The notes below the pieces were generated by a model. That model was not told the DNA's origin and did not search any database. It saw only the letters and a program-made list of their open reading frames with translations. The position numbers and the translations under genes are program-made. A stretch of DNA of 62,030 bases from an uncultured Flavobacteriales bacterium (GTDB lineage: Bacteria; Bacteroidota; Bacteroidia; Flavobacteriales_G; Salibacteraceae): NCBI GenBank assembly GCA_913062955.1, contig CAJXZP010000018.1, positions 1 through 62,030 of the forward strand, given 5' to 3'. Positions 1,143-28,372 of this stretch are shown one piece after another (within the stretch, counting starts at the first letter, position 1; each line of letters opens with the position of its first letter).

Positions 1143-2201
1143 TTATTTCAGTAAATCTTTTTCGTTCATAATAATGGGTAACCCATCTACATCTCTTATA
1201 AAAATTAGATCTTCCTCAAACTCATGTAATTTAAATGTAGTATCAAAAGATTCATCATTATCCAACAATCGTACCATATCCTCTGCAAAATTAGCTCCAC
1301 CTTGGGCAAAACAGCCATTAAATGCAACCATTCGAACGTTAATTTCCGTCACTTTTGGAGCTCCATGAATATTTTCCTTTAAATCTACCGTAAAGAAACC
1401 ATGTTTTTCCACGTTAGTTTTGTCCATTACCTCTTCAATAGCCTTACGAGACACTTCATATACTGATTTATCGTTTAACAATCTACCAAATGAAGTATTT
1501 CCTGTTATTCCGGAAGGAGCCACCTTAGCCATGATATAATTCACGCGTTCTCCAACTGCAGCACGAACCAACTTACCTTTGTAATACAATAGTTTACACG
1601 CCAAGTTACGCCCCGGTAAAAATTGACTCGCTAAAAACTCGGCTACACCTGGGATAATCAACATCCAGTTTTTCAATGACAACTCACTATCTACTTTCAA
1701 ACTACCTAAACCACTGGAGCCAGATGTACTGCGAATCCAAAATGGGTAATGTAATTTATCTTCAATTGCCTTAAAGTCAATATTCTCAGGATCCACTCTG
1801 ACAGAAGCGGGTACCACTCCAAATGGCTCCAAATACTCGGTCATCGTTGCTTTATCCACCAAAGCCTTTACCAAAGCATGATCCGGTAATATAACCTTGC
1901 AAGGCAATTCATGTGTTTTAGCACGTTTACTCCATTCCAACACCTCCAACTCGGGTTGCACAATAGCCAGATCAATAGCGTGTTTCTCTATAATTTTGGT
2001 TATTTCATCCCAATAATTATCTTCAGAACATCTTGGTATTAGGTAACTATGTTCAAATAAATCCTTTTGATACAATCCATAGGCTAACGGATTAATATCC
2101 GTACCAATAAAAGTATAATCTGAGTAATTACTTAGTTCCTTTAATGTACGCACAATACTTCTAGGTGTTGGGCCACCTACTCCGGTTATTAAAATATTCA
2201 T
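1143..2201 (-). CDS. ATP-grasp ligase (CarB-like), polysaccharide locus
   Basis: Protein of 352 residues with an N-terminal pre-ATP-grasp Rossmann-like domain (MNILITGVGGPTPRS), then an ATP-grasp fold. WIRSTSGSSGLGS around residues 155-168 looks like the flexible nucleotide loop, and VTEINVRMV near residue 290 carries the metal-binding Glu/Asn. Such enzymes join a carboxylate to an amine or thiol through an acyl-phosphate. It starts 8 bases after the CapK-like gene and is the last gene before the terminator. With the deacetylase-like and adenylating neighbours it may attach an acyl or amino-acid group to a sugar amine; that role is inference. Confidence 0.75.
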   Translation of the reverse strand: MNILITGVGGPTPRSIVRTLKELSNYSDYTFIGTDINPLAYGLYQKDLFEHSYLIPRCSEDNYWDEITKIIEKHAIDLAIVQPELEVLEWSKRAKTHELPCKVILPDHALVKALVDKATMTEYLEPFGVVPASVRVDPENIDFKAIEDKLHYPFWIRSTSGSSGLGSLKVDSELSLKNWMLIIPGVAEFLASQFLPGRNLACKLLYYKGKLVRAAVGERVNYIMAKVAPSGITGNTSFGRLLNDKSVYEVSRKAIEEVMDKTNVEKHGFFTVDLKENIHGAPKVTEINVRMVAFNGCFAQGGANFAEDMVRLLDNDESFDTTFKLHEFEEDLIFIRDVDGLPIIMNEKDLLK

Positions 2202-2209
2202 ATCAACAA

Positions 2210-3496
2210 TTAATTCATTAAATTCACGACCTTCCTTCTTTTCCCAGATGCTAATACCGGAATTTCATTTACATATTCAATACTAATAAGCGCATCTTTA
2301 CCCAAATAAACTTTAAATTCATCAATAAGGGCTTCCTCTCTTTCAAAATTCGTCTCAACAGAGAGTTTAAAGCCATATTCTTTTAGTCCCTTTTGAAAAA
2401 ATTGGTATTGAAGCAATTCAGCGTAATTCCACGTCCCGTTAGTAATAACAAAAGATGAAATTAGATCTCCTTTAGTATTATATATAGCATCCATTCTTCT
2501 ACCTCCTACATCCAATAAATACTCCTTAATACTCCCTTCCTCTTCTAAAGTTATCTTAGACCCCATATCCCCAGTATCGTATCTAATGATAGGCATTCCT
2601 TTATTAAAAAAATCGGTAATTACAATTCGTCCAATAATTCCATCCGCTATGGGAGTATCTTCATTAAGGTCCAGAATTTCTACATAATAACTTGCCGAAT
2701 TGATTAAATACCTGTCTGACTCCATTGATGTTTGCTGGGCAATAATCCCATTTTCAACATTTGAGTAACGTGCATACACGGGACAATTAAAAGTTGCTTG
2801 AATGTTTTTCCTACCTTCGATACCTATTCCTTCCGACATGGTAATAATCGAATCTAATCGAACATCAACATGTAAATTGTGTCTTTTTACACAAGCCGAG
2901 ATACTCTCTAGTGCGGAAGAATATCCTAAAAAATTTAGGTTTGATTCTTTATTCATCTCTCCTATCAATTTTTTTATTCTCAAGTCGGACAGGTTGAGTA
3001 CATCCACGGGTAAAATATTCTGCACTCTTTTCAGCCACCAGGACTTTTCATTGATATTATTCCAAATTTTAAAATAGGCCAATTTATTCCCAAGGAATAG
3101 CCCTCCCATTTCACCAAAAACAATGGTATCCGCAGTATTTCTATGAACTTTTTCTTTGGATTGATATACCTTGAAAGGAAGACCTGTAGACCCACTGGTT
3201 ACCACTTCTTTTAGTTGACCTATCACATATTCCTTAGAAATAAATTCACTCAAATTATTCCGTAGGTCTAATTTACTTAAAACTGGTAATTTCAGAAATA
3301 CAATGGGTAAATTTTCATAAAACGAAACATTACGTTTTGTATATCGCAATATTTTATTTAGTCGCTCTTCTTGAAAAGCTGTAAATCCATTAAGGTCAAA
3401 AGAGTTTCTACTTATAGCCCTAATATCCGCTAGATTTTTAGATACGGGACTCCCTTTTAGAAAGTCTACTAATTTAAATATATACCTCCTGAACAT
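2210..3496 (-). CDS. CapK/PaaK-like adenylate-forming enzyme
   Basis: Member of the phenylacetate-CoA-ligase-like (CapK) branch of adenylate-forming enzymes. VTSGSTGLPFKVYQS is the P-loop-like motif and RYDTGDMG the conserved adenylate-binding Asp motif; the C-terminal subdomain ends in KRRKVV. I place the start at ATG 3496 (428 residues, MFRRYIFKL), 4 bases after the sugar-transferase stop. An upstream start at 3559 would overlap that gene by about 60 bases and adds no domain. In capsule loci this family is thought to activate or transfer acyl groups. The substrate is unknown; the ATP-grasp gene next door suggests a joint acylation step. Confidence 0.75.
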   Translation of the reverse strand: MFRRYIFKLVDFLKGSPVSKNLADIRAISRNSFDLNGFTAFQEERLNKILRYTKRNVSFYENLPIVFLKLPVLSKLDLRNNLSEFISKEYVIGQLKEVVTSGSTGLPFKVYQSKEKVHRNTADTIVFGEMGGLFLGNKLAYFKIWNNINEKSWWLKRVQNILPVDVLNLSDLRIKKLIGEMNKESNLNFLGYSSALESISACVKRHNLHVDVRLDSIITMSEGIGIEGRKNIQATFNCPVYARYSNVENGIIAQQTSMESDRYLINSASYYVEILDLNEDTPIADGIIGRIVITDFFNKGMPIIRYDTGDMGSKITLEEEGSIKEYLLDVGGRRMDAIYNTKGDLISSFVITNGTWNYAELLQYQFFQKGLKEYGFKLSVETNFEREEALIDEFKVYLGKDALISIEYVNEIPVLASGKRRKVVNLMN

Positions 3497-3500
3497 AGTA

Positions 3501-4106
3501 CTAGTTCTTTCCGTTAAATGGTTGCATCGGACGATGCTCCGACTGATTAACACCTTCACTAATTAGCACTTTTTTTACCGTTAGGAACAGTATTTTAATA
3601 TCTAATAGTAAGGATAAATCATCTACGTAATTGACATCCAATTTAAACTTATCCGTCCACGAAATACTATTCCGTCCATTCACTTGAGCCCAACCTGTGA
3701 TGCCTGGACGAACATCATGACGCCTATGTTGTTCGTTACTATATAATTCCACATATTTAAAAAGTAAGGGTCTTGGGCCGATCAAACTCATATCCCCTTT
3801 TATAACATTAATTAATTGAGGCAATTCATCCATAGAGGTTTTACGAATGATTTTCCCTAACATAGTCAATCTCTTACTATCAGGTAAAAGAACCCCCTTT
3901 TCATCTTTTTTATCGCTCATGGTTTTAAACTTTAAAATATAAAAACCCTTAAGTTTTTTTCCGGGTCTATACTGAAGAAACACAGGAGAACCCAAGTTCT
4001 GGATGATCAATAAAACTATCAACACTAACATTACTGGAGAAAAAATAATAAGTGCGAACAAACTAAAAGCTATATCTAACACCCTCTTTGTTACAATTCT
4101 ATACAT
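3501..4106 (-). CDS. Initiating sugar-phosphate transferase, PglC-like (short bacterial sugar transferase)
   Basis: Monotopic phosphoglycosyltransferase of 201 residues, the size of PglC. It moves a sugar-1-phosphate from a UDP-sugar to undecaprenyl phosphate on the inner membrane and so starts the repeat unit. One hydrophobic N-terminal segment (residues 10-35) is followed by the family core: FKTM, the catalytic Asp-Glu pair in TSMDELPQLINVIKGDMS, LIGPRPL, and RPGITGWAQVNGR. It abuts the deacetylase-like gene (start 4106, neighbour stop 4107). With PglA- and PglE-like genes close by, a bacillosamine-type first sugar is the best guess. Confidence 0.9.
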   Translation of the reverse strand: MYRIVTKRVLDIAFSLFALIIFSPVMLVLIVLLIIQNLGSPVFLQYRPGKKLKGFYILKFKTMSDKKDEKGVLLPDSKRLTMLGKIIRKTSMDELPQLINVIKGDMSLIGPRPLLFKYVELYSNEQHRRHDVRPGITGWAQVNGRNSISWTDKFKLDVNYVDDLSLLLDIKILFLTVKKVLISEGVNQSEHRPMQPFNGKN

Positions 4107-5207
4107 TTAATCAAATAATTCTTTTGCTAATTCATCCATGGATTTAAACTCTACTTCTGGCCACTTCTTTGTTATTGCTGTTAATAACTCTTGTAGCACT
4201 TTTAAACCAGTAATTCTATTTTTGACGTCTATATGCCCACAAAAATTCACTCTATGAGAACTAATAATGGCAGGTTTACCAAGGATAAAGGCCATACTAA
4301 TTTGGTTCATGGTAAAACTCACCCAATCTCGGTTATCCAAAGTCGGTTCAAACACACAATTTCTATTTAAATATTTCAAGCCTACTTTTCCGACTTTTCC
4401 AGTGAAACAGAACTCTCTTTTGTACTTACCTTGTCCTTGATGTTCCAATCTAATAGCCGGAGTATCTAAAAACCGCACGCCACTATTTTTCAAAGCTCCA
4501 TTTAAAATATGATGATGAGGCGCTCCAGGTGCATTAAATATGGTTGCACAATATCCTAATTGTTTTTCAAATAAATCAAGACCTTCTGTCAAACCCAATG
4601 TTAATGTTTTATTTTCTGAAATCTCTTCAAAAGAATACGTTTCATTATAATGAATATTTTCATAATAATCAACGGGCAAAGCAGAATAACTCTGGTTTAA
4701 CAAACAAGTCATAAACAACGGATCTTTTTTATCCAACAACTCATTAAACAACCGTACATTTAAATGTTCACGACCATGATACTGGGGTACAAAAAACCCC
4801 TCATTAATCCCATCTTTCCATAGCCTAAAAGAATCATCATATTCTGACCCCAAGTCATTAAACGTATCTTTTACTGTTTTATAAATATACCTACCATCAT
4901 GGAGTGATTTGTCAAAATCAATGTTTGCCATATTAGCATAAGGAGTAAAAATAGCGGATTTATTTTTAGCATCTTTTACTTTATACAAAACCTCAAATAA
5001 CATTTGTAAATCCTCCGTGGTTTCTAGGCTATCATATTGATCAAATCGACTTCGATTAACGTCCAATCCACCAATTCTCATTTTTTCTCGTGATGCTTTG
5101 GAATGAATTCGAACATTTCCGTAATCATCCACAGCAAATGCCACCATTTTTTTTGATGATGTAGGTCCTGGGATATTTTTAAAAAACGCAAGAATTTCCT
5201 CTTTCAT
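4107..5207 (-). CDS. Polysaccharide deacetylase-like protein with HGREH motif (copy A)
   Basis: Protein of 366 residues, clearly a paralogue of the one at 12560-13744. Shared landmarks are an Asp-Asp pair (VDDYG at 26-30, compare ESDDWG), PQYHGREHLNV (HGREH at 144-148), SHRVNF at 317-322 and a KWPEVEF tail. The Asp pair, the His-rich central motif and a late His suggest a metal-dependent NodB-like barrel, but the classical TFDDG and HxxxH spacing is not evident. It lacks a signal peptide, so it probably acts on a cytoplasmic precursor. It lies between a GT4 and the PglC-like transferase with 2- and 0-base gaps. Deacetylation is a family-level inference. Confidence 0.6.
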   Translation of the reverse strand: MKEEILAFFKNIPGPTSSKKMVAFAVDDYGNVRIHSKASREKMRIGGLDVNRSRFDQYDSLETTEDLQMLFEVLYKVKDAKNKSAIFTPYANMANIDFDKSLHDGRYIYKTVKDTFNDLGSEYDDSFRLWKDGINEGFFVPQYHGREHLNVRLFNELLDKKDPLFMTCLLNQSYSALPVDYYENIHYNETYSFEEISENKTLTLGLTEGLDLFEKQLGYCATIFNAPGAPHHHILNGALKNSGVRFLDTPAIRLEHQGQGKYKREFCFTGKVGKVGLKYLNRNCVFEPTLDNRDWVSFTMNQISMAFILGKPAIISSHRVNFCGHIDVKNRITGLKVLQELLTAITKKWPEVEFKSMDELAKELFD

Positions 5208-5209
5208 AA

Positions 5210-6373
5210 CTATAATTCTGATATTAACCGATCATACTCTTTCTTAATAGCGAGTTGCACCTCTTTCCGTTCATAATTTCGGATAATTCGTTCACGAATT
5301 TTTTCAGAAGACATCAATCCTACATTAGACCTTATCATAAAACAAAATGCCTCTCGTATTGCACCGATACTCTTGGGCTCAATCACCCACCCATTTACCC
5401 CATTTTCAATAATTTCATTGCATCCATTTATATCGGTCACAATACAAGGTAATGCCATAGCTCCCGCTTCCATTACCGCATTGGGGAATCCTTCTCGGTA
5501 ACTTGGTAAAACAAAACAATCTGCCAATTTATAAAAAGGTCTAACATCATCAAATCGTCCAAGTAGTTTAATTTGAGGGTGAGATTCAATCACCGAAATA
5601 ATTTCCTTATTTAAAAGTCCATTTACTTTTTCAAAAACACCAATCAAAACCAATTCAGAATCTCTATTGGTTTTCTGGAAATCAACAAAAGAAGTAATCA
5701 TTTCCACGATTCCTTTTTCTCTCGCTATTCTACCCACAAACAAAAATACATACGCAGTAACCCCAATACCATAGTTTAAACGTAATTCTAATTTACTTGG
5801 TAAAAGTAAGGGGTCAAACCAAGTGGTATCCACGCCATTTGTAGATCCATTCAATAACACAGTGGACTTGTTTCGGGTGGTCATGTTTTTGGCCAAAATA
5901 TAATCATTTAAACCCTTGGAATTAGGATAAATATGAGTGGCCAATTTGTAAGTTAATTTTTCAAAAATAAGAACAAGGTAATATTTGGGACCACTTAACT
6001 CCATTAACGGCATTCCTGTTACCGTATGAATTCTAATTGGCACCCGTGAAAAATAGGCCGCCATCATCGATAATAATCCTGCTTTAGGAGTATGAGAATG
6101 TACCACTGTAGGTTTTTCCTTTCTAAACATTCTTATTAAACGACACAGTGCTAATACATCCTCTTTTGGGCGAATATTCCTTTCAATTTCAACCGCTCTC
6201 ACAGTTACTTGCTCCCTCTCTTTTAACGTATTAAAATGAAGGTTATCATTACCCGTAATTGCAATAATATTATAAAATCGATTTAAAAATGAAAGCTGCC
6301 CCTTTAACACAATATTCATGTAAATTGGAACGGTAGCCACTCTAATAATTTTTATTTTATTAGAACTGATCAT
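5210..6373 (-). CDS. Glycosyltransferase family 4, PglA-like
   Basis: GT-B glycosyltransferase of 387 residues. The N-terminal acceptor domain contains VVHSHTPKAGLLSMMAA and IRIHTVTGMP, typical of the PglA/WbpH-like group that adds HexNAc to an undecaprenyl-linked first sugar. The C-terminal donor domain has LFVGRIAREKGI, the EGFPNAVMEAGAMALP motif with the donor-binding Glu residues, and GVNGWVIEP. It starts at ATG 6373 and is followed 2 bases after its stop by the deacetylase-like gene. The linkage cannot be read from sequence, but second-sugar addition agrees with the neighbouring PglC-like enzyme. Confidence 0.85.
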   Translation of the reverse strand: MISSNKIKIIRVATVPIYMNIVLKGQLSFLNRFYNIIAITGNDNLHFNTLKEREQVTVRAVEIERNIRPKEDVLALCRLIRMFRKEKPTVVHSHTPKAGLLSMMAAYFSRVPIRIHTVTGMPLMELSGPKYYLVLIFEKLTYKLATHIYPNSKGLNDYILAKNMTTRNKSTVLLNGSTNGVDTTWFDPLLLPSKLELRLNYGIGVTAYVFLFVGRIAREKGIVEMITSFVDFQKTNRDSELVLIGVFEKVNGLLNKEIISVIESHPQIKLLGRFDDVRPFYKLADCFVLPSYREGFPNAVMEAGAMALPCIVTDINGCNEIIENGVNGWVIEPKSIGAIREAFCFMIRSNVGLMSSEKIRERIIRNYERKEVQLAIKKEYDRLISEL

Positions 6374-6475
6374 TATACGAGTTTAAAACAGTCAAAATTT
6401 TTATCATTTGCAATTAATTACCGTCATTATCAATATTTGTATTCAAATAATATATGATTACCAGCTAACGTGCCA

Positions 6476-7367
6476 TTAAGAACACGCTAAGGCAATTGAA
6501 AGCCTGTCAAATAGACGCTCCCCTAAGTATCTGCGGTTTAATTTGTAACAAAATTCATTTAAATATAGTTGTAGGTATTTTCCTTCTATTTTGTGATAAA
6601 CACCTAGAAAATTGCGTTTTGCATTACTTATCGCAATATGAACCCATTTTAAAGTAGAGTTGGTAGTCTCTTTAGTGGATTGTTCTGAGTAATGAGCCTC
6701 AACCAGATCTGAGATATCCACATAACTCTTGCTTTTATCAGTAAATACGATTAACATATCATTTATATTTTCTTCTAAATACTCGTTAATAGATTCGGCT
6801 TTTTGTGTTTCTAATACTTTCATCTTGAAATACCCTGTATAGCTCGTTTTCTCCCCAGTCTCAATATCTACTAACGGTATAGATTCCGCTAAAACTGCCA
6901 CGTTTTTCTGCTTCTGACTCCCTTTTCCTCTTTTTAGTTTAGTCCCTTTTTGGAGTGGCTATTGAAAAAAAACCTTCGTCCATTTCTATACTGTCTTTGA
7001 GGTTATACAGTGAATCTCGTAAACCCATAGCCGTTCTTATTTTATGCATTAATACCCAAATGGTATCGTACCTTGAATGGTCAAGTTGGCGTTGTAGTTC
7101 TGAAGCTGAAATCCCTTTCTTGGAGAAGCTCATGAATGCCATTGCAAGATACCATGTTCGAACTGGTAAATTCGAGGCTTGCAGTATTGTTCCGCTTCTC
7201 AGGGTAGTTCAAAAACCACATCCAGTACATTGCCATTGTTCCTTGTTTTTCAGCCAGTAATGTATCTTTGATTTACACTTTTCACCTTCTTTCTCTCGTA
7301 ATTCCTTGAAATTTTCCCGACAACTTTGTTCATCTGGATAAATCGATACAAATTTTAGTATATTCAT
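6476..7367 (-). pseudogene. IS1595-family transposase remnant (nonsense and frameshift)
   Basis: Three consecutive pieces make one IS1595-type transposase. The N-terminal part starts at ATG 7367 and has a damaged zinc ribbon (EKCKSKIHYW, WQCTGCGF). It is cut by an in-frame TGA at about 7208-7210, where an Arg is expected before TTLRSGT. The middle piece (7142-6939) has ISASELQRQL and the IEMDEGFF motif with the first catalytic Asp. A frameshift near 6935-6945 separates it from the last piece (6901-6476), which has SKSYVD, WVHIAISNAKRNFLGVYH and KYLQLYLNEFCYKLNRR. No clear terminal inverted repeats were found, so the element limits are open. It interrupts the spacing between two glycosyltransferase genes (GT4 and GT2). 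Confidence 0.88.
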
Positions 7368-7461
7368 GATTCCTAATTTCTCACAAACAAACCGTCACAG
7401 ACCATAATGGATTTACGGTGTGGTATCTTTACGGGGAATCATAAAATCATATCCTCTTCCG

Positions 7462-8457
7462 CTAAATTAATCCTTTATTATTCTTTTTAATATAAGCACC
7501 CAAAAACATGGAAAGTATATTTAAACCAAAAATCTTATAAATAACCAGAATCCATCGCCCTTTTTTAAACTTTGTATATTCCAATAGATAAATTATTTTT
7601 TTTATTCTTGGGGCTAATAATTCTTTGTGAGATGTGTCTCCCAGATTATATGTTAAGCCAATTGCTTGAGATAAAAGATACGATAAGTACGAGAATATTT
7701 CGTTTTTAATAGACTCATCAGCAAACTTTATCATAAGAACTTCAATGGTATTAATTAAATCTAAAACACCCTTTAACCCCACCAATGAGGTCGCAGAATT
7801 TGGACGTAAAACTCTGTATACATAAAACACTTCAGATAGACTGTCAAAGGACTTTAAATATGGGAAAATTGTGAGGAACCACTCAATATCCTCAGTATTC
7901 TTCTTACCCACCTTAAAAAAAATGGAATTTTCTATAATAATGTCCCTCTTAATACAAGCCAGATAAACACTTGTAATGAATGCTCCATTTTTCATGAAAT
8001 GTTCAAACATTTGCGAGTTTGATTTTTCATAAAATTCGAAGCCATTAAAATATGAATTGGGATATATTAATTTTCCACTATCATAAAGTTTCATTTTTTT
8101 AAAATAAATAATGTCAGAGTCCCGCTCATCTATTTTATTCATGAGACACTGCATCCAATCCGTACCATCCCAGAAATCATCACCATCAAGGAACATTAAA
8201 TATTTCCCAATAGCTTTTTGGATTCCCAAATTTCTAGCGGAAGACACACCATTGTTCTTTTGGGTATATACTTTAAACCTAGCATCCACTTTCTCAAATT
8301 TCCTGCAGATTTTTAAAGAAGAGTCCTGGGACCCGTCATCCACAAGAATAATTTCTATATGTTCACTTCTTTGAATTAAAATGCTTTTCAAACATTGATT
8401 CAGATAATTCTCTAGATTGTAAACAGGAACAACAATACTTATTAAAATATCACGCAT
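7462..8457 (-). CDS. Glycosyltransferase family 2
   Basis: GT-A fold enzyme of 331 residues. The nucleotide-binding start is ISIVVPVYNLENYLNQCL, IILVDDGSQDSS follows, and YLMFLDGDDFW carries the DxD-like metal site near residue 95. GVSSARNLGI is the usual GT2 helix. The C-terminus has a weakly hydrophobic, basic segment (KKGRWILVIYKIFGLNILS) that may bind the membrane. Its start overlaps the previous GT4 gene by 8 bases, so the two are probably translationally coupled. Donor and acceptor cannot be assigned. Confidence 0.85.
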   Translation of the reverse strand: MRDILISIVVPVYNLENYLNQCLKSILIQRSEHIEIILVDDGSQDSSLKICRKFEKVDARFKVYTQKNNGVSSARNLGIQKAIGKYLMFLDGDDFWDGTDWMQCLMNKIDERDSDIIYFKKMKLYDSGKLIYPNSYFNGFEFYEKSNSQMFEHFMKNGAFITSVYLACIKRDIIIENSIFFKVGKKNTEDIEWFLTIFPYLKSFDSLSEVFYVYRVLRPNSATSLVGLKGVLDLINTIEVLMIKFADESIKNEIFSYLSYLLSQAIGLTYNLGDTSHKELLAPRIKKIIYLLEYTKFKKGRWILVIYKIFGLNILSMFLGAYIKKNNKGLI

Positions 8458-9517
8458 TTAAAAAAATTAAATCAAATAATTTTGAAGTAATGAATTCTTC
8501 ACCATACTTCTTACTCTCAATTTTAGCAACATCACCAATCTTTTTTCTGTGATTTTCATTTTCAATTAACTGATCAATGGCCTGCGCTAATTTCTCAGTA
8601 TCGCCCTCATCAATTAAAACTCCACTCACTTGATTATCAATGATTTCTTTAGGTCCGGAGCTAAAATCAAATGATACACAAGGAGCTCCATAAGACATTG
8701 CTTCTATTAAAACATTAGGGAACCCTTCACTTCTTGAAGGAATAACAAAAATTCCTGCTTGTTTATAAAACTGAGAAACATTATTCTGTTTCCCTTTAAA
8801 AACAACACGATCCTTTAAGTTTAATTGATCAATTAATAAAGTTAAAGATTTATCTTCATTTGCATTACCTCCAACAATGAATAATGGCCAATTATTTTTC
8901 ACCTTACTTAAGGCTATAATTAATCGATCAAACCCCTTAAGAGGATCATTTAAACGACCAACTGCTAATATGAAATTTTGTCTTTCATATATTGGCTCCA
9001 ATACAGGCTTCTCTAAAATATTTGGAATCACCGCCAATCTAGAACTTCTGTAATATTTTTCTTGAAATTTTAAAGCTTCTTCTGTTTGTACCATGATACC
9101 CATGGGCGAATTAATCGCAAAAGCTACCTTATTAAAAAGGTTCAGTTTACCCCCCCATTTATAAAATGGACTAGATCTCTCCGATATAAAGAAAGGAATT
9201 GAAACACCAACAAGGGAGACAGCTACCAAGGCTCCATAAAACTTATTATAAACCAATATAGTATCTGGGTTAATTGACTTAATATTCTGCCTTAAGTATT
9301 TTATAGTACCTAATATATTTAACCTTGTAACTTCCGTTTTGGGTTCATACAGAGATATTTCTTTTTGCAATTTAAAGAAGTGTTTCTTTTTGAATATGGT
9401 AACTACAGAAACTTTACCAACCGAGTGGACTAAGGCATTAGCCATTTGACTAGATGCTTTTTCCATTCCCCCCAAACTTAAACAGGGACTAACAATAAGA
9501 ATGTGTTTATTTTTCAA
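8450..9517 (-). CDS. Glycosyltransferase family 4
   Basis: Retaining GT-B glycosyltransferase of 355 residues. It begins ILIVSPCLSLGGMEKASSQMA, the glycine-rich acceptor-domain loop of GT4 enzymes. The donor domain shows ILAVGRLNDPLKGFDRLI, VVFKGKQNNVSQFYK and SRSEGFPNVLIEAMSYG with the EX7E pattern. GPKEIIDNQVSGVLIDEGD closes the sugar-nucleotide pocket. It overlaps the GT-D gene upstream by 11 bases and the GT2 downstream by 8, so the three glycosyltransferases are a tight translational group. It resembles HexNAc transferases such as PglH/PglJ in layout, but the sugar is not assignable. Confidence 0.85.
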   Translation of the reverse strand: MKNKHILIVSPCLSLGGMEKASSQMANALVHSVGKVSVVTIFKKKHFFKLQKEISLYEPKTEVTRLNILGTIKYLRQNIKSINPDTILVYNKFYGALVAVSLVGVSIPFFISERSSPFYKWGGKLNLFNKVAFAINSPMGIMVQTEEALKFQEKYYRSSRLAVIPNILEKPVLEPIYERQNFILAVGRLNDPLKGFDRLIIALSKVKNNWPLFIVGGNANEDKSLTLLIDQLNLKDRVVFKGKQNNVSQFYKQAGIFVIPSRSEGFPNVLIEAMSYGAPCVSFDFSSGPKEIIDNQVSGVLIDEGDTEKLAQAIDQLIENENHRKKIGDVAKIESKKYGEEFITSKLFDLIFLNA

Positions 9518-10421
9518 TGTTAGAATAATTGGCTATTACTTGACTCAAATAATTCGAGTCTGTAGTATTATCTACAACCCTTCCTCCGGAAGCTTCTGAG
9601 GTATACTTCCCTGGGATTTTCATCTTTTTGGTAGCTCCTCTTAAGAACCATTCATATTCCACATCCACATTTCCAATGTCCACCGCTTGATAACCATTGC
9701 GAGCTAATTTAAAAGCCAATATTTTAGCGGTGGGTCCCATAGCTATAAGAAATAAAACATTTTTTGGTTGCTTAATTGCTTCCTGATATAGTAAATTAAC
9801 GTTCTCAAATGCATTATGAACAGGACCTAAAATTCTATTTACGGAGCGTGCATATTTAAACAAATCATTACCCATTCCTAATCTACTTTTTTCACCTTCA
9901 ATTAGAACGATATCTCTACCCTCCCAAATCTTCATTACCTTTTGAAAAAGCCTTCCCGAATCACTGGTGTCTTCATAATCCATATATAATCGAGTCATAC
10001 TTGCATTATAATATTTCTTTCCCGTAAGCAAATGTTTTTTTAGACGTGGGTAAATCCATGCGATTTGCGACCTCCAAGTAAGCTTAGCATCTTCCTTTAA
10101 GTTATTAAGGGAATAATAACCAATAGGTAAACCTACTAAAATTTGTGAGTTATCTGAACATAGAATTTCAATCATTCCTTCACGAAGTTCTCTACTCTGT
10201 GTCTGATAAGGTAAGCTCAATTTATCAATAATAAATAAGAATTCACTATCCCCAAACCGACAAATACTAACCTTGTCTTTTATAATTTTATCTAAAGTTT
10301 CATCAATGGATTTTACTTTGGGTAAAGGAAATAATTTTATAATTAATGGATATAGCCCACTTAAACTATATTTGGCAACTTTTCTTATCGGCCCAAAGGC
10401 TTTACCGTATCTAATATTCAT
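9507..10421 (-). CDS. GT-D fold glycosyltransferase (DUF1792/SP_1767-like)
   Basis: Protein of 304 residues of the GT-D glycosyltransferase family, first defined as DUF1792 in streptococcal adhesin glycosylation loci. SICRFGDSEFLFI near residue 53 is the signature that binds metal and UDP-sugar. ILVGLPIGYY, MTRLYMDYEDT, IVLIEGEKSRLGMGNDLF and FLIAMGPTAKILAFKLARNG follow, ending with AVDIGNVDVEYEW. In known members it adds glucose to an existing glycan. It lies 9 bases after the ATP-grasp gene and overlaps the next GT4, so it takes part in the same repeat-unit assembly. Confidence 0.85.
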   Translation of the reverse strand: MNIRYGKAFGPIRKVAKYSLSGLYPLIIKLFPLPKVKSIDETLDKIIKDKVSICRFGDSEFLFIIDKLSLPYQTQSRELREGMIEILCSDNSQILVGLPIGYYSLNNLKEDAKLTWRSQIAWIYPRLKKHLLTGKKYYNASMTRLYMDYEDTSDSGRLFQKVMKIWEGRDIVLIEGEKSRLGMGNDLFKYARSVNRILGPVHNAFENVNLLYQEAIKQPKNVLFLIAMGPTAKILAFKLARNGYQAVDIGNVDVEYEWFLRGATKKMKIPGKYTSEASGGRVVDNTTDSNYLSQVIANYSNIEK

Positions 10422-10430
10422 GAGAACAGC

Positions 10431-11453
10431 TTATTTTTTTAATATATATTTTGATACCAATTCATCAATAATCCAATGGGTAGAATTAAATTGCCCCTTA
10501 TGCCATTGTAAATTCTCATCCCAATAACCTGGACATTCTTTATACGATTTATGCGCAAAACCATAATTTATTTCTACAATTAACGGAGCTTTATTTTTAT
10601 CAAACACAAAATCAAACGCTACACATTGACCCTCCATTTTTTTTGTAACATCAAATGCTACTTTTATGCAGTCCAAATTTATTAAGCTATGATCATATTC
10701 AATAATCCCACTTCCAGATGCTCGAAAATCACCCTTATTCACCATTCTTTTTATAGCAAAAGCTTTGTTCCCAATTACAATTACCCGGGTATCATGATCA
10801 TTATCAGGTATAAATTCCTGAAAGTAAGCATATCCCTTTTCATTGCCTACCGTTTTTTCAAATTGCGTTGACATAAACAATCTCCGAATACTCTTCAGTA
10901 CCGCCACATAATCCTTATTGGATTTAAAAGATTTAAAGTTTCGTTGTAGATCTCCCCATTTATCATACGATTTAAACCCTTTATTAAATGCTTTTCTAAT
11001 AATATTCCGAGCCTCCTTTTTAGTTCGAATAAGCTTTACATTAGTAGAGCCAGCACCACCTCTTAACTTAAACACTTTAGGGAAGTCCACTTTTCCAACC
11101 CAATCCAAAGCCGTCAATTTATCATAAAAAACGTAATTCTTAGGTATGGGTGCATGAATAGCCTCTAATAAATACTTTTGCCCAACCTTATCGTCAAAGT
11201 GCCAAGCCGTATTAAAGTTTGGAAATACTATTTTACCACTCTGTTCCAGAGCAAAAAGAAGCCCTTTTGCAAACAAAACGTCCTTAGCATTGGTATGATG
11301 ATGGTGCCATAAGACAATGTCGCAATCTTCTACATCTTGAACAATGGTTGAACTATAACAATCTATTATTTTAAATGAAATATGTTGTTGTTCACAATAC
11401 GCAATCCAGTCGCTACTGAAATCAGATTTAGATGGATGGATGGCTATTTTCAT
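10431..11453 (-). CDS. ATP-grasp ligase (second copy type)
   Basis: Protein of 340 residues, not closely similar to the ATP-grasp at 1143-2201. FPKVFKLRGGAGSTNVKLI near residues 124-142 is the nucleotide-binding lysine plus glycine loop. RVIVIGNKAFAIKRMV and AFDFVFDKNKAPLIVEINYG, with the metal-binding Asp, Glu and Asn, complete the fold. These features are those of RimK/D-Ala-D-Ala-ligase-like enzymes, which form amide bonds with ATP. Its start overlaps the end of the CapA gene by 26 bases. Paired with CapA and a deacetylase-like protein, it may ligate an amino acid or other acid to a sugar amine; this is inference. Confidence 0.75.
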   Translation of the reverse strand: MKIAIHPSKSDFSSDWIAYCEQQHISFKIIDCYSSTIVQDVEDCDIVLWHHHHTNAKDVLFAKGLLFALEQSGKIVFPNFNTAWHFDDKVGQKYLLEAIHAPIPKNYVFYDKLTALDWVGKVDFPKVFKLRGGAGSTNVKLIRTKKEARNIIRKAFNKGFKSYDKWGDLQRNFKSFKSNKDYVAVLKSIRRLFMSTQFEKTVGNEKGYAYFQEFIPDNDHDTRVIVIGNKAFAIKRMVNKGDFRASGSGIIEYDHSLINLDCIKVAFDVTKKMEGQCVAFDFVFDKNKAPLIVEINYGFAHKSYKECPGYWDENLQWHKGQFNSTHWIIDELVSKYILKK

Positions 11454-12558
11454 TATCTAATAATTTAATAAGTATATCACGATGTGATTCACAACGAATC
11501 AAGTTTAATAACAATTGTTTTTTTCCATTTTTCCAAGGGCTCGGTAGCATTCCTTTTGAAAAGAGTCTATGTAACCATACATTACTATAAGGTTGAATAA
11601 AGTGGTTATATTGTTTCTTTTTGGAATCCATAAATGCATCAAACCGATTTCTCAACTCATCATCATCAGAAACGAGCCGATCCAATTCATCCGATCTACT
11701 TTCAAAGTAGTCTCTCACATTCTGAGGCAAGGTATCCGTAAACATTAATCCCTCAAAATTTTGTAAAAAAGGCCGAAATTCAATTTGAATAGGATTATTC
11801 TTTTCCAATTTCAAAACTGCAATAACCCCGAGAGACCAATCAATATTTTGCCCTGGCACATTAAACAAAAAGTTACCAAGGCCAAATGCAATGGGCTTAT
11901 CTTTATAGTATTCATACCCATTAAAACAATGGGTATGGTGCGCAATCACCGCATCAGCACCCGCATCAATAAAAAAACGTAAGGTCTCCTTAAACCGTAC
12001 ACTTGGATAAAGGTGAGTTTCATTACCTCCATGCACAATAACAATAATTTTATCCGTTCGTCCTTTTAATTCTAAAATCGTTTTCAAATTCGAAGGGAAA
12101 TCTATGGCATTTGCACCCACATCATCAATTTGTATAAATTCATTTTCCGCCACATTCACAACTCCAATTTGCATCCCTTTTATTTCAAATACCTTTGGAC
12201 GATTCATTTCAGACACCTTGGTAGCAGCACCAATATGCTGCACACTAGCCTTATCCAAATTCATCAAGGTTTCCTCCAATCCAACCGTCCCATGGTCTAA
12301 AATATGATTGTTGGCCAAGGTTAATAAATCAATTTTTAGTTTCTTAATAATTGGAATAACCGTTTTGGTCATTTTTAAATTTGGGCCAAACTTATTTGCC
12401 GGATTTCCTAAATTAATAATCGGTGCTTCCAAATTAATAATTTTAAAGTCTACTTCATCCAAAACTTTACGTAAACTCGAACAAACGGAATCATCAATTC
12501 TTTCAACTTCTCTTATTCCCACATAAAAATCCCCGCCAATGGCAATTTTACATCCCAT
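11428..12558 (-). CDS. CapA-family metallophosphatase-like protein
   Basis: Member of the CapA/PgsA family (PGA_cap domain), found with poly-gamma-glutamate capsules and in many O-antigen loci. Visible motifs are GDFYVG at 9-14, INLEAPI at 41-47, LANNHILDHG at 81-90, VHGGNE at 175-180, and AHHTHCFNGYEYYKDKPIAFGLGNFLF from 206, which match the calcineurin-like metal ligands. No signal peptide or membrane anchor is seen, unlike Bacillus CapA, so it probably acts in the cytoplasm. It lies 1 base after the second deacetylase-like gene and overlaps the ATP-grasp gene. The reaction is not established for this family. Confidence 0.85.
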   Translation of the reverse strand: MGCKIAIGGDFYVGIREVERIDDSVCSSLRKVLDEVDFKIINLEAPIINLGNPANKFGPNLKMTKTVIPIIKKLKIDLLTLANNHILDHGTVGLEETLMNLDKASVQHIGAATKVSEMNRPKVFEIKGMQIGVVNVAENEFIQIDDVGANAIDFPSNLKTILELKGRTDKIIVIVHGGNETHLYPSVRFKETLRFFIDAGADAVIAHHTHCFNGYEYYKDKPIAFGLGNFLFNVPGQNIDWSLGVIAVLKLEKNNPIQIEFRPFLQNFEGLMFTDTLPQNVRDYFESRSDELDRLVSDDDELRNRFDAFMDSKKKQYNHFIQPYSNVWLHRLFSKGMLPSPWKNGKKQLLLNLIRCESHRDILIKLLDNENSHPSI

Positions 12559-12559
12559 C

Positions 12560-13744
12560 TTACAAAATCTTTTTTAATAATTGTGCTGAAGTTACAAACT
12601 CCACTTCAGGCCATTTAATAGTTATCTGATTAAGGAGTTCATCTAACCCTTCCAAATTTTCATTCCTATTTTTTAAACTCATACTCCCCGAAAAGTTAAC
12701 TCTGTGTGTGCTAATGGTTACAGGAACTTTCCGTTTGAACGCACTATCTACCTGCTGTAAGCAGTTTTTCACCACCCGTTTTTTGTCAATGCCTTCAAAA
12801 GGTTCAAAGAACGCATTCCTAATCAAATATCGCTGCCCGAAAGAATTTATTTCTCCCAAATAATGCATCTTACTTTTACACTTATTTATATTTGCCAATT
12901 GATACTTTGGTTTAACTTGACTCTGGATCCCTTGAATACCTTTAACACCGCATTGGGCTAATGTTTCCAATAGTTCATCACCCCATACATAGTTAGGTGC
13001 AATAAACGTATCACTTTTATAACCAAATAACTTCTCAAACATAGAACTGGCTTCAATTATGGATTCCTTTCCAAATTTCAAGTCCTCTTCGTTATCATAA
13101 TCAAAGGCTGCAAGAATACTATTTTGAATAGATGGAATCAAATAGGTACCTAAACCAAAAACTTTATGGTCGAATGCTTTTAGTAAATGTTTATTCCCTC
13201 CTCGTAATAAACCTAACCACCTAGGAACATTTATATGCTCTCTTCCATGTAATTGAGGATAAAACAAACCTTTTTTAATACCTTGATGCCAAGCATCAAT
13301 TGCTCCACTATGTTGCAGAGAATTGTTTAAGGTCTCCGTAAACAACTCATAATGATATTCCTCAAAATTAGAATCTCGAATATTATCAAAATTAGGGTTT
13401 GTCATTATAGTATTTGCCGTAATTATTGGAGGTTTTCCGTTACCCCCTTTATGTTTATTTAAGACTTCAAATAAAGCACTAAAGTCATTATGGGTTAATA
13501 AACTATCGTAATTTTCAAATACTCTATTAGGTAACTTACCCCAATGAGATTCTAATTTCTTCTTTGTTTCAAAATTAGGCATTCTATTATTTCCCCAATC
13601 ATCAGACTCAATAACCACCAACTTTTCCGATAATTTTTTATCCTTCATTTTGAAATATTCACTTTTCAATTTTGAGATGGATTTTCCAATAATGTGCATA
13701 CTTTTATTCTTAATATATTTTTTTAAAAAAATAGGATAGCCCAT
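12560..13744 (-). CDS. Polysaccharide deacetylase-like protein with HGREH motif (copy B)
   Basis: Protein of 394 residues, a divergent paralogue of 4107-5207. It has ESDDWG at 46-51, PQLHGREHINV (HGREH at 166-170), a mid-protein FIAPNYVWGDELL, THRVNF at 346-351 and KWPEVEF near the end. The first 40 residues are basic and have no match in the paralogue, so a start at Met33 (MKDKKLSEKL, base 13648) is possible. ESDDWG proteins recur in Bacteroidetes capsule loci and are usually called polysaccharide (de)acetylases. It is the first gene of a three-gene module with CapA and an ATP-grasp, after a 279-base AT-rich spacer in which I see no gene or clear signal. Confidence 0.6.
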   Translation of the reverse strand: MGYPIFLKKYIKNKSMHIIGKSISKLKSEYFKMKDKKLSEKLVVIESDDWGNNRMPNFETKKKLESHWGKLPNRVFENYDSLLTHNDFSALFEVLNKHKGGNGKPPIITANTIMTNPNFDNIRDSNFEEYHYELFTETLNNSLQHSGAIDAWHQGIKKGLFYPQLHGREHINVPRWLGLLRGGNKHLLKAFDHKVFGLGTYLIPSIQNSILAAFDYDNEEDLKFGKESIIEASSMFEKLFGYKSDTFIAPNYVWGDELLETLAQCGVKGIQGIQSQVKPKYQLANINKCKSKMHYLGEINSFGQRYLIRNAFFEPFEGIDKKRVVKNCLQQVDSAFKRKVPVTISTHRVNFSGSMSLKNRNENLEGLDELLNQITIKWPEVEFVTSAQLLKKIL

Positions 13745-14023: not shown

Positions 14024-15235
14024 CTAAGACATCGTAATTCTAACAAATTCAATAAAAAAATTGGAGACAAAAAAATAAATAGACATAATTTCATGAGTGG
14101 CAATCAAAGCCATAACACCATAACCTAAACTAACAGGCACTAGAATCTTTAGATAATTCAAGAATATCGTATTAAACCGGTTAGTAGAAAATATCAAAAA
14201 GAACAAAACAATTCCAAAAAAGCTACTGATATAAACATACCTCTCACCTTGCGAAAAATAAAGCATTTGATTAGATAAACCGAGTAACAAAATACATATG
14301 GAAAAAAACACCTTTAAAGTACTATTGGATAATAATTTCTTTCTATAAATAAACACAAGAAAAAGCCCAAAGGGTATTAAAATTCTTTTGGCAAAAAAAT
14401 CAAAAATCTCTAATGTCCGCAACTTCCAGTTATGCCCAGCATTTCGAATTTCATATCTTAGATCCATACGTTCTTTTGCATCTGAGGTTCCATAAGACTG
14501 ATATTTACTTTCGACCGCAGTTCCTTCAAGGATTGAATTATTCGATTGAACAAAAGGTAAAATACTATTAAATGGGACGAGAGAAAATAAAATAAAAAAT
14601 ATTATAGAAGGAATTATTTTATTCTTGAAAAGGAGAATAAACACAGGAATAATCAAAAAAACAATCAATCCAACATGGAAAAATGGAGCTATCCCTAATA
14701 AGTACAAATGTTTTTTATTTAAGGATTTAGTATAGTTAAAAAGATGATAGATAATAAAAATGAGTCCAGAAAAAAATGCGAAATTTCCAATGGTTCTAAT
14801 AGAATAAAATAAGATAACAGAAATAAAAAAAACATCGCCAAAAAGAGAATGTTTTTTAACATTAACATATTTGTGTATTTGATAAATTGTTTGTACTAAA
14901 AAATAACCGAAAAACCCAAAATAAATAGCGAAAATGAAATTATGGAAGCTCAGAATAGGACCAAAAAACACATTTCCCAACAAAACAAAAGACTTGCCCT
15001 CAACAAATCCAAAAACATAGCCAAAAGCCTCAGACAAAGACATATCTGACTCGAAGTAAAATCGTTCTTTATACCTATCCAAATCGCCAACAGGTAATGA
15101 GGTTAATCCCATGAAAGCAAAAAACATTACCAATAACCTTCTACCAAATGGGTATTCAAAATATTTAACTCCTGAAATCAAACCTGAAAATGGCCAAACT
15201 AAGAACAGAAGAAAAAGAGCATTTTTCTTATTCAT
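14024..15235 (-). CDS. wzy: O-antigen/capsule polymerase, EpsG/Wzy-like
   Basis: Integral membrane protein of 403 residues with about ten hydrophobic segments and a large non-membrane loop around residues 225-265 (NSILEGTAVESKYQS to NAGHNWK). The early motif GDLDRYKERFY resembles the DxxRY region of EpsG-family polymerases. Such proteins join undecaprenyl-linked repeat units in the periplasm. The locus has one flippase, Wza and Wzc and no other polymerase candidate, so position supports the call. It overlaps the upstream gene by 4 bases (ATGA). Confidence 0.75.
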   Translation of the reverse strand: MNKKNALFLLFLVWPFSGLISGVKYFEYPFGRRLLVMFFAFMGLTSLPVGDLDRYKERFYFESDMSLSEAFGYVFGFVEGKSFVLLGNVFFGPILSFHNFIFAIYFGFFGYFLVQTIYQIHKYVNVKKHSLFGDVFFISVILFYSIRTIGNFAFFSGLIFIIYHLFNYTKSLNKKHLYLLGIAPFFHVGLIVFLIIPVFILLFKNKIIPSIIFFILFSLVPFNSILPFVQSNNSILEGTAVESKYQSYGTSDAKERMDLRYEIRNAGHNWKLRTLEIFDFFAKRILIPFGLFLVFIYRKKLLSNSTLKVFFSICILLLGLSNQMLYFSQGERYVYISSFFGIVLFFLIFSTNRFNTIFLNYLKILVPVSLGYGVMALIATHEIMSIYFFVSNFFIEFVRITMS

Positions 15236-17727: not shown

Positions 17728-18426
17728 CTAACCTTTCAAAAACTGACCTTCTCGTTCCAATAATAAGGAAGCTAATTCAAAATCAATAATATCATCAATA
17801 TCTACAGAACTCAATTTGTCCATTGGGTATTTTATTAACTTATTAAAATCATTGATTTGTTTAGACTCCAAACTTTTACTATTTATGATATAAATAGCAC
17901 CATTTAACTCCCAAACTTGTGGGCAATCTTGTCTTCTGGTAAATGCAGACTTCTTTGATTTCTCTAAAAACCCACTCTCATTTTCTTCAAACAAAACATA
18001 ATAAGGGTTTGCATCGGTTTTTTTTACAGAAACCACCATATCAATATCCTCAGAGTACATTTCTAAAGCAGACTTAATGTGAATAGAAGTTCTTAAAGGA
18101 GAAGTAACTTGTAATAATATCACGACATCTGGTTTACCAAAATTAATTGAATAATAATCTAGAGCGTGCATTAAAACATCCTGAGAACTTGACGTATCAG
18201 TGGCCAAGGCAACAGGTCTTAAAAAAGGTACAATTAACCCTGTTAACTCGGCTACAGTTTTTATTTCAATAGAATCAGTACTTACAATAATGTCAGAGTC
18301 ATCAAATACTTCACGTGCAGCTTCAATAGTATAATGAATTAGAGGTTTACCATGAAGTAATTTAATATTTTTCCCTGGTAACCCTTTAGACCCTCCTCTA
18401 GCGGGTATTACAACTAATTTTTTCAA
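17728..18426 (-). CDS. legF: CMP-nonulosonate synthetase (CMP-legionaminate-type cytidylyltransferase)
   Basis: Acylneuraminate cytidylyltransferase of 232 residues. VVIPARGGSKGLPGKNIKLL is the CTP-binding P-loop, IIVSTDS and LRPVALATDTSSSQDVLMHAL the substrate region, and LLQVTSPLRT the conserved core. It activates a nonulosonic acid with CTP for transfer. The next genes upstream encode PtmE-, LegG-, LegI- and LegC-like enzymes, so legionaminic-type acid is more likely than Neu5Ac. Start ATG 18426 overlaps the previous stop by 4 bases. Confidence 0.88.
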   Translation of the reverse strand: MKKLVVIPARGGSKGLPGKNIKLLHGKPLIHYTIEAAREVFDDSDIIVSTDSIEIKTVAELTGLIVPFLRPVALATDTSSSQDVLMHALDYYSINFGKPDVVILLQVTSPLRTSIHIKSALEMYSEDIDMVVSVKKTDANPYYVLFEENESGFLEKSKKSAFTRRQDCPQVWELNGAIYIINSKSLESKQINDFNKLIKYPMDKLSSVDIDDIIDFELASLLLEREGQFLKG

Positions 18427-21595: not shown

Positions 21596-22479
21596 CCTAA
21601 TTTATCCCCTACCTTTAAAGTTGTATCCACCTCTAGTAATTCAATAAATGAATCCTTAGTCTTAACTAAATAACCATTGACCGTTTTCTCAATAATTTGT
21701 CCAGCTGTATTCATATATGAAGGCGCCTGAGATATAAACCTAGCTTTGTTAATTTTCACTTCATGCCCATTTATATATGATCTCGCAATAGGTCCAGGTG
21801 TACAAATTGATCTAATAAAATTAAATATTTCTCTTGAACTTTGATTCCAATTAATAATTTCATCACCTACCCCTCTACCACCACAATAAAACCCAATAGG
21901 GTGAATGGTGTTTTGCTTTACCCTATCGTACTTTCCTATTTGAATATTTTTCACCGCATCGTACAATATTTTAGCACACTCTACAAAAGCCATTTTCAGT
22001 AAAGTTTCGTATGTATCTGAATCCGATATATTGAAGGTTCTTTGAAGAATAATATCACCTGTATCGATTCCTTCGTCAATGTAATGTACCGTAATACCAA
22101 ATTCCTTCTCATCATTTATCAATACCCAATTTAAGATATTTCTACCTCTGTAGAAAGGGAGTTTTCCAGCATGACAATTAATGGTTTTTAATTTAGGGAG
22201 ATTGATTATTTCATTTTTAAATATCTGGTTAAAACTCATAGAAATGAATAAATCACAATCATATTTTAATGCTTTTTGGTAGAATTCAACCGAATTAATT
22301 TTTATCGGACATAAATAATCAATGTCATATTTTTCTGAATATTTTTTTAGCGTTTCATCCTTTGTGTCTGTCCGTGGCACAATAAACTCTATTGATATTG
22401 TTGAATCTTTAATTAACAATTCAAACGCAGCATGGGACCATGGCCCATCAGCGAAATAACCTATTTTTAATTTATCCAT
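21592..22479 (-). CDS. Sugar N-formyltransferase (methionyl-tRNA formyltransferase fold)
   Basis: Protein of 295 residues. The catalytic triad of folate-dependent formyltransferases is visible: N101 and H103 in TINCHAGKLPFYRGRN, and D139 in DEGIDTGDIIL. The C-terminal part (from about 200) resembles an Fmt C-terminal barrel-like region (CTPGPIARSYINGHEVKI, then GDKLG at the end). It is too short and too different for tRNA formylation and belongs with WbkC/QdtF/FdtF-like sugar enzymes. It occupies the place where LegH acetyltransferase is expected, between the LegC aminotransferase and LegI. N-formylation of the 4-amino group of the precursor is the straightforward reading. Confidence 0.85.
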   Translation of the reverse strand: MDKLKIGYFADGPWSHAAFELLIKDSTISIEFIVPRTDTKDETLKKYSEKYDIDYLCPIKINSVEFYQKALKYDCDLFISMSFNQIFKNEIINLPKLKTINCHAGKLPFYRGRNILNWVLINDEKEFGITVHYIDEGIDTGDIILQRTFNISDSDTYETLLKMAFVECAKILYDAVKNIQIGKYDRVKQNTIHPIGFYCGGRGVGDEIINWNQSSREIFNFIRSICTPGPIARSYINGHEVKINKARFISQAPSYMNTAGQIIEKTVNGYLVKTKDSFIELLEVDTTLKVGDKLG

Positions 22480-26945: not shown

Positions 26946-28211
26946 TTACAACCTCTTATTCACTATCTCACTCGGCAATATCCCTTTCACATCATATACC
27001 ATTCCCTGGATTTTTAATAAACTAGGAATATCTAAACTTAAAAACTCATTATGAGATACTGCTAAAATAATAGTATCGTATTTTCCTAATTGCTCCTTAC
27101 GTAACAAGTCAATCCCAAACTCTTGATTTACTTGTTTTGAATCTGCCCATGGGTCATAGAGATCCATATCCATATCATAAGTCAATAGCTCATTGTAAAT
27201 ATCAATGGCTTTGGTATTACGGATATCTGGACAATTCTCCTTAAATGTAATTCCAAGCATCAACACTTTGGCTTTTTTAACCCCTACATCGCCCTTCAAC
27301 ATCATTTTCACGATTTCGGTAGCAACGTACTGTCCCATACCATCGTTCAATCTTCTTCCTGCTAAAATTATCTCCGGATGATAACCTACTTCTTGTGCTT
27401 TTTGTGCCAAGTAATACGGGTCTACCCCAATACAGTGACCTCCCACTAATCCGGGTTTGAATGGTAAGAAATTCCATTTGGTACCGGCAGCTTCTAATAC
27501 TTGTGCGGTGTCAATTCCCATTAAATTGAAAATTTTAGCCAACTCATTTACAAAAGCAATATTGATATCCCGTTGTGAATTCTCGATCACTTTTGCTGCC
27601 TCAGCTACTTTTATACTTTGCGCTTTATGCGTACCCGCAACAATTATTTGCTTGTATAATTGATCGACCTCTTCCGCAATTTCAGGGGTAGAACCCGAAG
27701 TCACTTTCAAGATTTTAGTAACGGTATGTTCTTTATCTCCCGGGTTAATCCGTTCTGGTGAATAGCCCGCAAAGAAGCCCTCATTAAATTTCAATCCCGA
27801 AACACGTTCTAGTACCGGCACACAATCATCTTCTGTTACTCCTGGATACACCGTAGATTCATAAATAACGATATCTCCCTTTTTCAATACTTTACCTACC
27901 GTTTCAGATGCTTTAATAAGCGGAGTAAGCACAGGTCGGTTATTTTTATCTGTAGGGGTAGGAACAGTAACAATGTAAATGTTACAATCCGAAATATCTG
28001 CGGCATTAGAGCTCACAGAAAACGAATGATTTGCCAATACATCTTTCAAATAATCATCTGCCACCTCTAAGGTATGGTCATGGCCATTATTTAATTCAAT
28101 TACTCGAGGTACATTGATATCAAAACCAACGGTCTTGAATTTCTTACCAAATTCTACGGCTAAAGGTAGGCCTACGTAACCAAGACCTATGACTGCTATT
28201 TTTTTATTCAT
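26946..28211 (-). CDS. tviB: UDP-N-acetyl-hexosamine 6-dehydrogenase (TviB/WbpA/WbpO type)
   Basis: UDP-sugar dehydrogenase of 421 residues from ATG 28211 ([20 protein letters not shown]). It contains the NAD-binding [52 protein letters not shown], and the catalytic cysteine C260 in [15 protein letters not shown]. It oxidises UDP-GlcNAc or UDP-GalNAc to the uronic acid. A 17-residue upstream extension (to 28262) is only a translation of the GACTATGAC-like repeat and is rejected. The epimerase downstream makes UDP-GalNAcA supply likely. Confidence 0.9.
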
Positions 28212-28372
28212 GGTATACAAAATTACTTTGACGAAAACTATGACAATGACTTTAATAGCCAATGTAAGATAAATTCGTCCTTTTTATTTTAATTTAAGAT
28301 CAATCTGCTCCTTCTTTTCTGAATGGAATGCAGTTTAACTATAAGTTTTTCAATTTTTGAAGAAAAAGTATA

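Follow-up and report, generated by a model that had tools for sequence, protein, structure and literature searches.

HGREH proteins, a conserved pair of predicted N-deacetylases with class-specific amide-forming partners in surface-sugar gene clusters of Bacteroidota and related phyla

A stretch of 62,030 nucleotides from an uncultured Flavobacteriales bacterium (assembly GCA_913062955.1, contig CAJXZP010000018.1, positions 1 to 62,030), referred to as the window, was analysed and found to encode two copies of a protein named here HGREH, each followed in transcription order by genes for putative amide-forming enzymes. It was concluded that these genes belong to a real, conserved and uncharacterised system. 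All of them lie on the minus strand. In module B, the HGREH class-II protein HG-II (12560..13744), a predicted N-deacetylase of the CE4/NodB fold according to its structural model and motifs, is followed by a CapA/PGA_cap metallophosphatase-like protein, possibly an amino-acid epimerase (11428..12558, PF09587), and by GRASP_B, a RimK/LysX-type ATP-grasp ligase (10431..11453, PF08443 and a structural model). Module A starts with the HGREH clade-I protein HG-I (4107..5207), for which homology, tree position and motifs predict the same fold and activity. It continues with a PglC-type initiating sugar-phosphate transferase (Bac_transf, 3501..4106, PF02397, 206 bits), a PaaK/CapK-like adenylate-forming enzyme (2210..3496), the PylC/carbamoyl-phosphate-synthase-like ATP-grasp ligase GRASP_A (1143..2201, PF21360 N-domain and PRK12767-type models) and a LegC-family DegT aminotransferase truncated where the contig stops (1..1005, PF01041 with 294.9 bits and TIGR04181 with 362 bits, partial). 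The sequence-only reading of this DNA had located six genes in two parallel modules, and all six were recovered in place; the transferase and the aminotransferase were added to module A.

HG-I and HG-II shared 32% identity across 360 amino acids (E 3e-47), which agreed with the earlier view that they are paralogues. Neither copy scored above cut-off for any family of Pfam or NCBIfam, PF01522 (Polysacc_deac_1) gave no match to either at E up to 1, and hhalign returned a probability of 2% against a PF01522 protein. A sequence search of the PDB with the HGREH profile yielded designed repeat proteins only, which were judged spurious, and no match to HGREH was obtained in plasmid and phage records. 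The AlphaFold2 model of HG-II, with a mean predicted local distance difference test score (pLDDT) of 88, displayed the distorted beta/alpha barrel of CE4/NodB enzymes. The best fold matches were deacetylases for the most part, including the Helicobacter pylori HP0310 deacetylase 3qbu (Z 19.7, root-mean-square deviation 3.0, 236 residues aligned) and the human NDST1 deacetylase 8ccy (Z 18.7), and the allantoinase PuuE 3cl6 (Z 18.2) and ArnD 8t0j (Z 16.6) were close as well. Viral fold matches were weak and again indicated the deacetylase fold only.

The residues D48 and D49 (motif 1, DD) and H166 and H170 (motif 2, HxxxH), which in CE4/NodB enzymes provide the catalytic base and the D-H-H metal site, were kept in 168 of 168 HGREH sequences. 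The late catalytic histidine of motif 5, H347, was invariant in every HGREH sequence covering that position, and so were R309, N310 and R348, which do not belong to the classical CE4 motifs. The RxPxY signature of CE4 motif 3 was missing: positions 249-252 read APNY, ANCY, PPNG and similar, and the arginine was absent. Therefore, HGREH was placed in the CE4/NodB fold superfamily, outside the classical CE4 family. The structure prediction suggested as a check by the sequence-only reading thus came out in its favour, in the fold as well as in the metal-site motifs. The possibility of one copy being inactive was discarded, as both classes retain every motif residue, and by sequence both copies look catalytically competent. 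A membrane-like segment was absent from nearly all of 167 HGREH members, hence the proteins are likely cytoplasmic.

The same fold and metal site could serve a different reaction, in which HGREH would attack a different bond or substrate, such as an N-formyl group, as ArnD does, or an acyl group supplied by neighbouring enzymes. Such an activity would fit the distance of HGREH from Polysacc_deac_1, the closeness in fold of ArnD and PuuE, and the invariant residues outside the CE4 motifs; in addition, the window encodes a formyltransferase, and another adjoins a PF01522 deacetylase in locus L194, described below. It was nevertheless judged improbable, given that the best fold matches are mostly deacetylases and that formyltransferases did not turn up as regular partners of HGREH.

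The distribution of HGREH was surveyed in an even sample of 395 genomes. It was present in 23 of them, and 19 of these 23 held two to four copies. Among the carriers are Bacteroides, Prevotella and a few bins from outside the Bacteroidota, and on that ground the idea of a connection with type IX secretion was dropped. A tree was constructed from 168 HGREH sequences, taken from 80 named loci and from the sampled loci. A group of 62 sequences with a support of 100, designated clade I, contained the module A copy and was never represented twice in one locus. The remainder of the tree was treated as class II, a class by exclusion, where the module B copy was found on a deep branch. One clade-I copy was paired with one non-clade-I copy in 58 of the 64 two-copy loci, when label shuffles, which ignore relatedness among loci, gave a mean of 29.9 and a maximum of 41 such pairs. 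HGREH is an ancient pair of sister enzymes in surface-sugar clusters of Bacteroidota and related phyla.

Further, the partners of each class were counted among the next three genes downstream of 96 class-II and 32 clade-I copies. Class II was followed by a RimK-type ligase in 34/96 cases, by CapA in 28/96 and by AsnB in 21/96; the corresponding counts for clade I were 1/32, 2/32 and 0/32. Conversely, Bac_transf (12/32), PaaK (4/32) and PglD (5/32) were recorded downstream of clade I, and none of the three downstream of class II (0/96 for both Bac_transf and PaaK). Clade I stood directly upstream of another HGREH gene in 24 cases. Module A of the window was repeated in genome G250, which carries HG-I, PaaK, Bac_transf, a GRASP_A homologue (L043:1764-2870, 384 bits) and DegT, and a similar set of HG-I, PaaK, ATP-grasp, Bac_transf, PglD and DegT was found in genome G364. 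The two parallel modules noticed in the window are accordingly a widespread arrangement.

The RimK-type ligase occurred in 17 of the 23 HGREH genomes and in 6 of the 372 genomes without HGREH (p 3e-20). A count by genus that excluded the own genome gave proportions of 8/12 and 5/158 (p 4e-8). The survey of other genomes called for by the sequence-only reading thereby revealed co-occurrence well beyond chance. At the level of loci, 56 HGREH loci were compared with 20 control loci, which were picked in genomes without HGREH by the same type of initiating transferase. The ligase was found in 29/56 and 0/20, CapA in 21/56 and 1/20, and at least one of four amide-forming families in 48/56 and 6/20 of the HGREH and control loci, respectively. 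In this comparison a different gene anchored the control loci, and HGREH loci had served to train the search profiles. None of AsnB, ATPgrasp_ST, TupA and PaaK was significantly enriched when considered individually.

Among the 45 loci with both HGREH and the RimK-type ligase, CapA was present in 26, DUF362 in 9 and both in none (p 1e-4). It was also observed that in L067, L068, L088, L092, L098, L111 and L115 a DUF362 protein is encoded near the RimK-type ligase, in the place of CapA. In one genome without HGREH, G065 (L194:7689-9720), a PF01522 deacetylase and a formyltransferase come after CapA and the RimK-type ligase, and this deacetylase is an apparent replacement of HGREH, seen in a single case.

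These counts also bear on an explanation free of any functional coupling, by which HGREH pairs and amide-forming enzymes would merely hitch-hike together within a single type of capsule or O-antigen locus that moves horizontally. The order of the loci is kept over long distances, so joint inheritance is possible, and CapA, PaaK and AsnB were found in loci without HGREH as well. However, the absence of the RimK-type ligase from all control loci, the specificity of the partners for each HGREH class and the mutual exclusion of CapA and DUF362 would be hard to reconcile with mere hitch-hiking, which was regarded as very improbable.

GRASP_A and GRASP_B showed no mutual sequence similarity, the former matching PylC-like_N and carbamoyl-phosphate-synthase-like models and the latter PF08443 (RimK) above cut-off, so that their assignment to different ATP-grasp branches was upheld. 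Against NCBIfam TIGR00768, GRASP_B scored 65.9 bits, under the cut-off of 143.4. Its model (pLDDT 88.5) adopted the RimK/LysX ATP-grasp fold, with Z values of 25.1 for LysX 3vpd and 24.8 for RimK. LysX, RimK and ArgX join the amine of an amino acid to a carboxylate acceptor. The next folds were those of D-Ala-D-Ala ligases (Z about 20), which activate the amino acid. GRASP_B retained about 50% identity across its relatives, which suggests that the RimK-type ligase has one conserved substrate.

The CapA identity of the second module B protein was firmly supported by a PF09587 score of 177.8 bits versus a cut-off of 27. Its nearest sequence match in the PDB was the lasso-peptide epimerase MslH (8gq9, PMC10406935), with which it shares the CapA-type calcineurin fold and apparently the two His/Asp dyads; the dyads D10/H210 and H85/D88 were kept in 35 relatives. 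Seven of the eight residues that make up the calcium ligands and the two dyads of MslH were conserved, part of them being common to related phosphoesterases. Unlike in MslH, the position of the calcium ligand H261 is taken by glycine in CapA relatives (G178), and the NCBIfam model of MslH, NF038314, was matched with 60.3 bits, under its cut-off of 700. It is possible that CapA inverts an attached residue from L to D. The CapK/PaaK-like designation of 2210-3496 held in part: weak matches to PaaK and DVU_1553-type AMP-ligase models were obtained, but they stayed below the NCBIfam cut-offs and there was no Pfam match.

The fold of GRASP_B, closest to LysX, RimK and ArgX, is in line with an alternative in which HGREH would deacetylate and leave a free amine, giving a zwitterionic polysaccharide, and the ATP-grasp and AsnB enzymes would separately amidate uronic or nonulosonic carboxylates of the same repeat unit. 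The window contains nonulosonic-acid genes and, in the same locus, a UDP-sugar dehydrogenase (26946..28262, minus strand, PF03721/PF00984/PF03720) as a possible source of uronic acid, and the residue on which MslH, the nearest solved relative of CapA, acts carries a free carboxylate. Moreover, genes for an aminotransferase, a HAD phosphatase and a TupA ATP-grasp enzyme come directly after HG-II in L090 (11083-13817), L093, L099 and L126, and the parts of this run match those of the serinol-amide cassette of Campylobacter jejuni. The TupA-like ATP-grasp enzyme Cj1438C of that species amidates the carboxylate of glucuronic acid in the capsule (PMC11800379). The UDP-sugar dehydrogenase, however, was no commoner in HGREH loci with the RimK-type ligase (1/23) than in those without it (3/24) or in the controls (7/20), all with short flanks, and separate amidation would leave the tight linkage between deacetylase and ligase unexplained. 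This alternative, the strongest of those considered, was judged rather unlikely.

We proposed instead, as the likeliest reading, that the acetyl group of an amino sugar is exchanged, by N-deacetylation followed by ATP-driven attachment of another acid or amino acid, and a probability of roughly 0.5 was assigned to this reading. It was put forward because of the fold and conserved site, the ancient pairing, the class-specific partners and the genome-level linkage of the RimK-type ligase, all computed directly, together with the PF01522 deacetylase in G065, the lack of a membrane-like segment in nearly all HGREH members and the precedent of the Wbp/Vim pathway discussed below. What we infer are the substrate, the deacetylation itself, the order of the steps, the use of the freed amine and the epimerase role. 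The two HGREH proteins would be cytoplasmic, metal-dependent N-deacetylases, each acting at a different amino-sugar position during repeat-unit assembly on uridine diphosphate (UDP) or undecaprenyl carriers, and the product would be a Wzx/Wzy-made surface polysaccharide. HG-I may serve the initiating sugar together with the transferase, the aminotransferase, the PaaK-like activator and the ATP-grasp enzyme of module A. HG-II would serve a later sugar with the RimK-type ligase and, as options, CapA, AsnB, DUF362 or a further ATP-grasp enzyme. The adjoining ATP-dependent enzyme would then attach an acid or amino acid to the amine freed by deacetylation, thus swapping acetyl for a variable acyl group, and CapA may invert the attached amino acid.

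Several points weigh against the exchange of acetyl. The nearest folds of GRASP_B (Z 24-25) are those of carboxylate-acceptor enzymes, and the DegT aminotransferase of module A could supply an amine without any deacetylation. Loci often hold two HGREH genes and a single ligase, the HGREH copy number does not rise with the ligase number (Spearman -0.30), and a rule of one ligase per HGREH was rejected by these counts. Six sampled genomes carry the RimK-type ligase without HGREH, and a substitute deacetylase was found in one of the six (G065), not all of which were checked. Those TupA and AsnB enzymes of this type that are known amidate uronic acids (PMC7468200, PMC11800379). The earlier proposal of deacetylation followed by amide formation was supported in part: the deacetylase part gained from the fold, the intact motifs and the co-occurrence, and the freed amine is a candidate substrate of the ligases.

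Runs of ATP-grasp genes adjoining HGREH were found mostly in one family, that holding Fodinibius genomes. Five such genes stand in a row in G364 (L286:8684-14375), and four plus two flank one HGREH gene in G266 (L041:3974-11942); these runs could build a peptide branch. A wider, doubtful reading is that of a modular line of decoration: the sister deacetylases would open amines on a surface polysaccharide, ATP-grasp ligases that can replace one another, as many as five in succession, would build an amino-acid or short peptide branch at these positions, and CapA or DUF362 would tailor residues, for example from L to D. In effect, peptides would be made without ribosomes on an O-antigen or capsule (non-ribosomal peptide synthesis).

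The sequence-only reading had known of no described pathway with this gene set, and no paper describing the HGREH family, the pair or the partner sets was found in a search that mostly did not reach subscription literature. The logic of deacetylation followed by aminoacylation, however, has been proposed for the Wbp/Vim pathway of Porphyromonas gingivalis and Tannerella forsythia (VimE, VimA, WbpS), in which the CE4 enzyme VimE would take N-acetyl off the linking sugar, Ser or Gly would be placed onto the amine, and an AsnB-like amidotransferase is involved (PMC7468200). In contrast to the HGREH loci, the transferase VimA is FemAB/GNAT-like rather than of the ATP-grasp type, and there is one deacetylase instead of a pair. 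By description, HGREH also differs from VimE in having no match to Polysacc_deac_1. No VimA-type FemAB/GNAT transferase was noted among the families beside HGREH, although no search was aimed at VimA.

The capsule amidation of C. jejuni resembles the present system in the formation of an amide by an ATP-grasp enzyme on a capsule sugar; it differs in its target, the glucuronic acid carboxylate, and no HGREH protein is reported in the accessible part of that source (PMC11800379). The run of aminotransferase, HAD and TupA genes recurs next to HG-II in several relatives. CE4 deacetylases and ArnD, a bacterial amino-sugar enzyme of HGREH-like fold, share with HGREH the fold, the DD and HxxxH motifs and the late histidine (3qbu, 8t0j), but show no detectable sequence family match to it, and motif 3 of HGREH is without the arginine of RxPxY. 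In Flavobacterium psychrophilum, O-antigen R-group genes, with PglC, PglD and a ketoacyl-ACP-synthase, provide the bacillosamine-type initiating sugar with an acyl group that varies; there the acylated amine is the 4-amine of Qui2NAc4N, and no deacetylase is mentioned (PMC6519341). Deacetylation followed by aminoacylation has been proposed before, for Wbp/Vim, and ATP-grasp amide formation on a capsule is already known; the novel parts seem to be the HGREH family, its pairing, which looks obligate, and the separate set of partners of each class.

HGREH thus represents a family without a Pfam or NCBIfam model and an ancient pair, each member of which has its own swappable amide-forming partners. 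If the exchange of acetyl is true, unusual amide-linked acyl or amino-acid groups, possibly D-amino acids, could be predicted from genes for bacterial surface glycans. Such groups determine charge, antigenicity and sensitivity to phages or proteases, and sugar analysis often misses them.

The surrounding locus resembles those for capsules or O-antigens of the Wzx/Wzy type. In transcription order, it starts with a Wza-type export protein (33640-34440), a Wzc-type kinase (31190-33637) and a NusG-like protein (29014-29496), followed by the UDP-sugar dehydrogenase, sugar epimerases and a LegC/NeuB/NeuC/cytidylyltransferase set with a formyltransferase (17728-24627). A NusG-like protein heading the locus resembles the antitermination-controlled capsule loci of Bacteroides. 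Then come a flippase-like protein, a polysialyltransferase-like protein and, immediately upstream of HG-II, a probable Wzy-type polymerase (14024..15235, minus strand) without a Pfam match; the flippase and the polymerase were assigned by eye and position. In many relatives the slot of this polymerase-like gene, ahead of HGREH, is occupied by an EpsG-like gene. Module B is followed by glycosyltransferases, a transposase-like remnant, another glycosyltransferase and module A. The remnant between the modules (~6470-7370) probably derives from a transposase, is apparently broken by frame changes and stops, and reads by eye like the IS1595/ISXO2 type. The legionaminic-acid-like genes NeuB, NeuC and LegC, together with the formyltransferase, suggest that the same polymer contains an N-formyl nonulosonic acid. 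A probable second nonulosonic set, of the pseudaminic type, was noticed at 51973-56289 of the window, with Polysacc_synt_2, a DegT aminotransferase and an LpxB-like plus GNAT protein.

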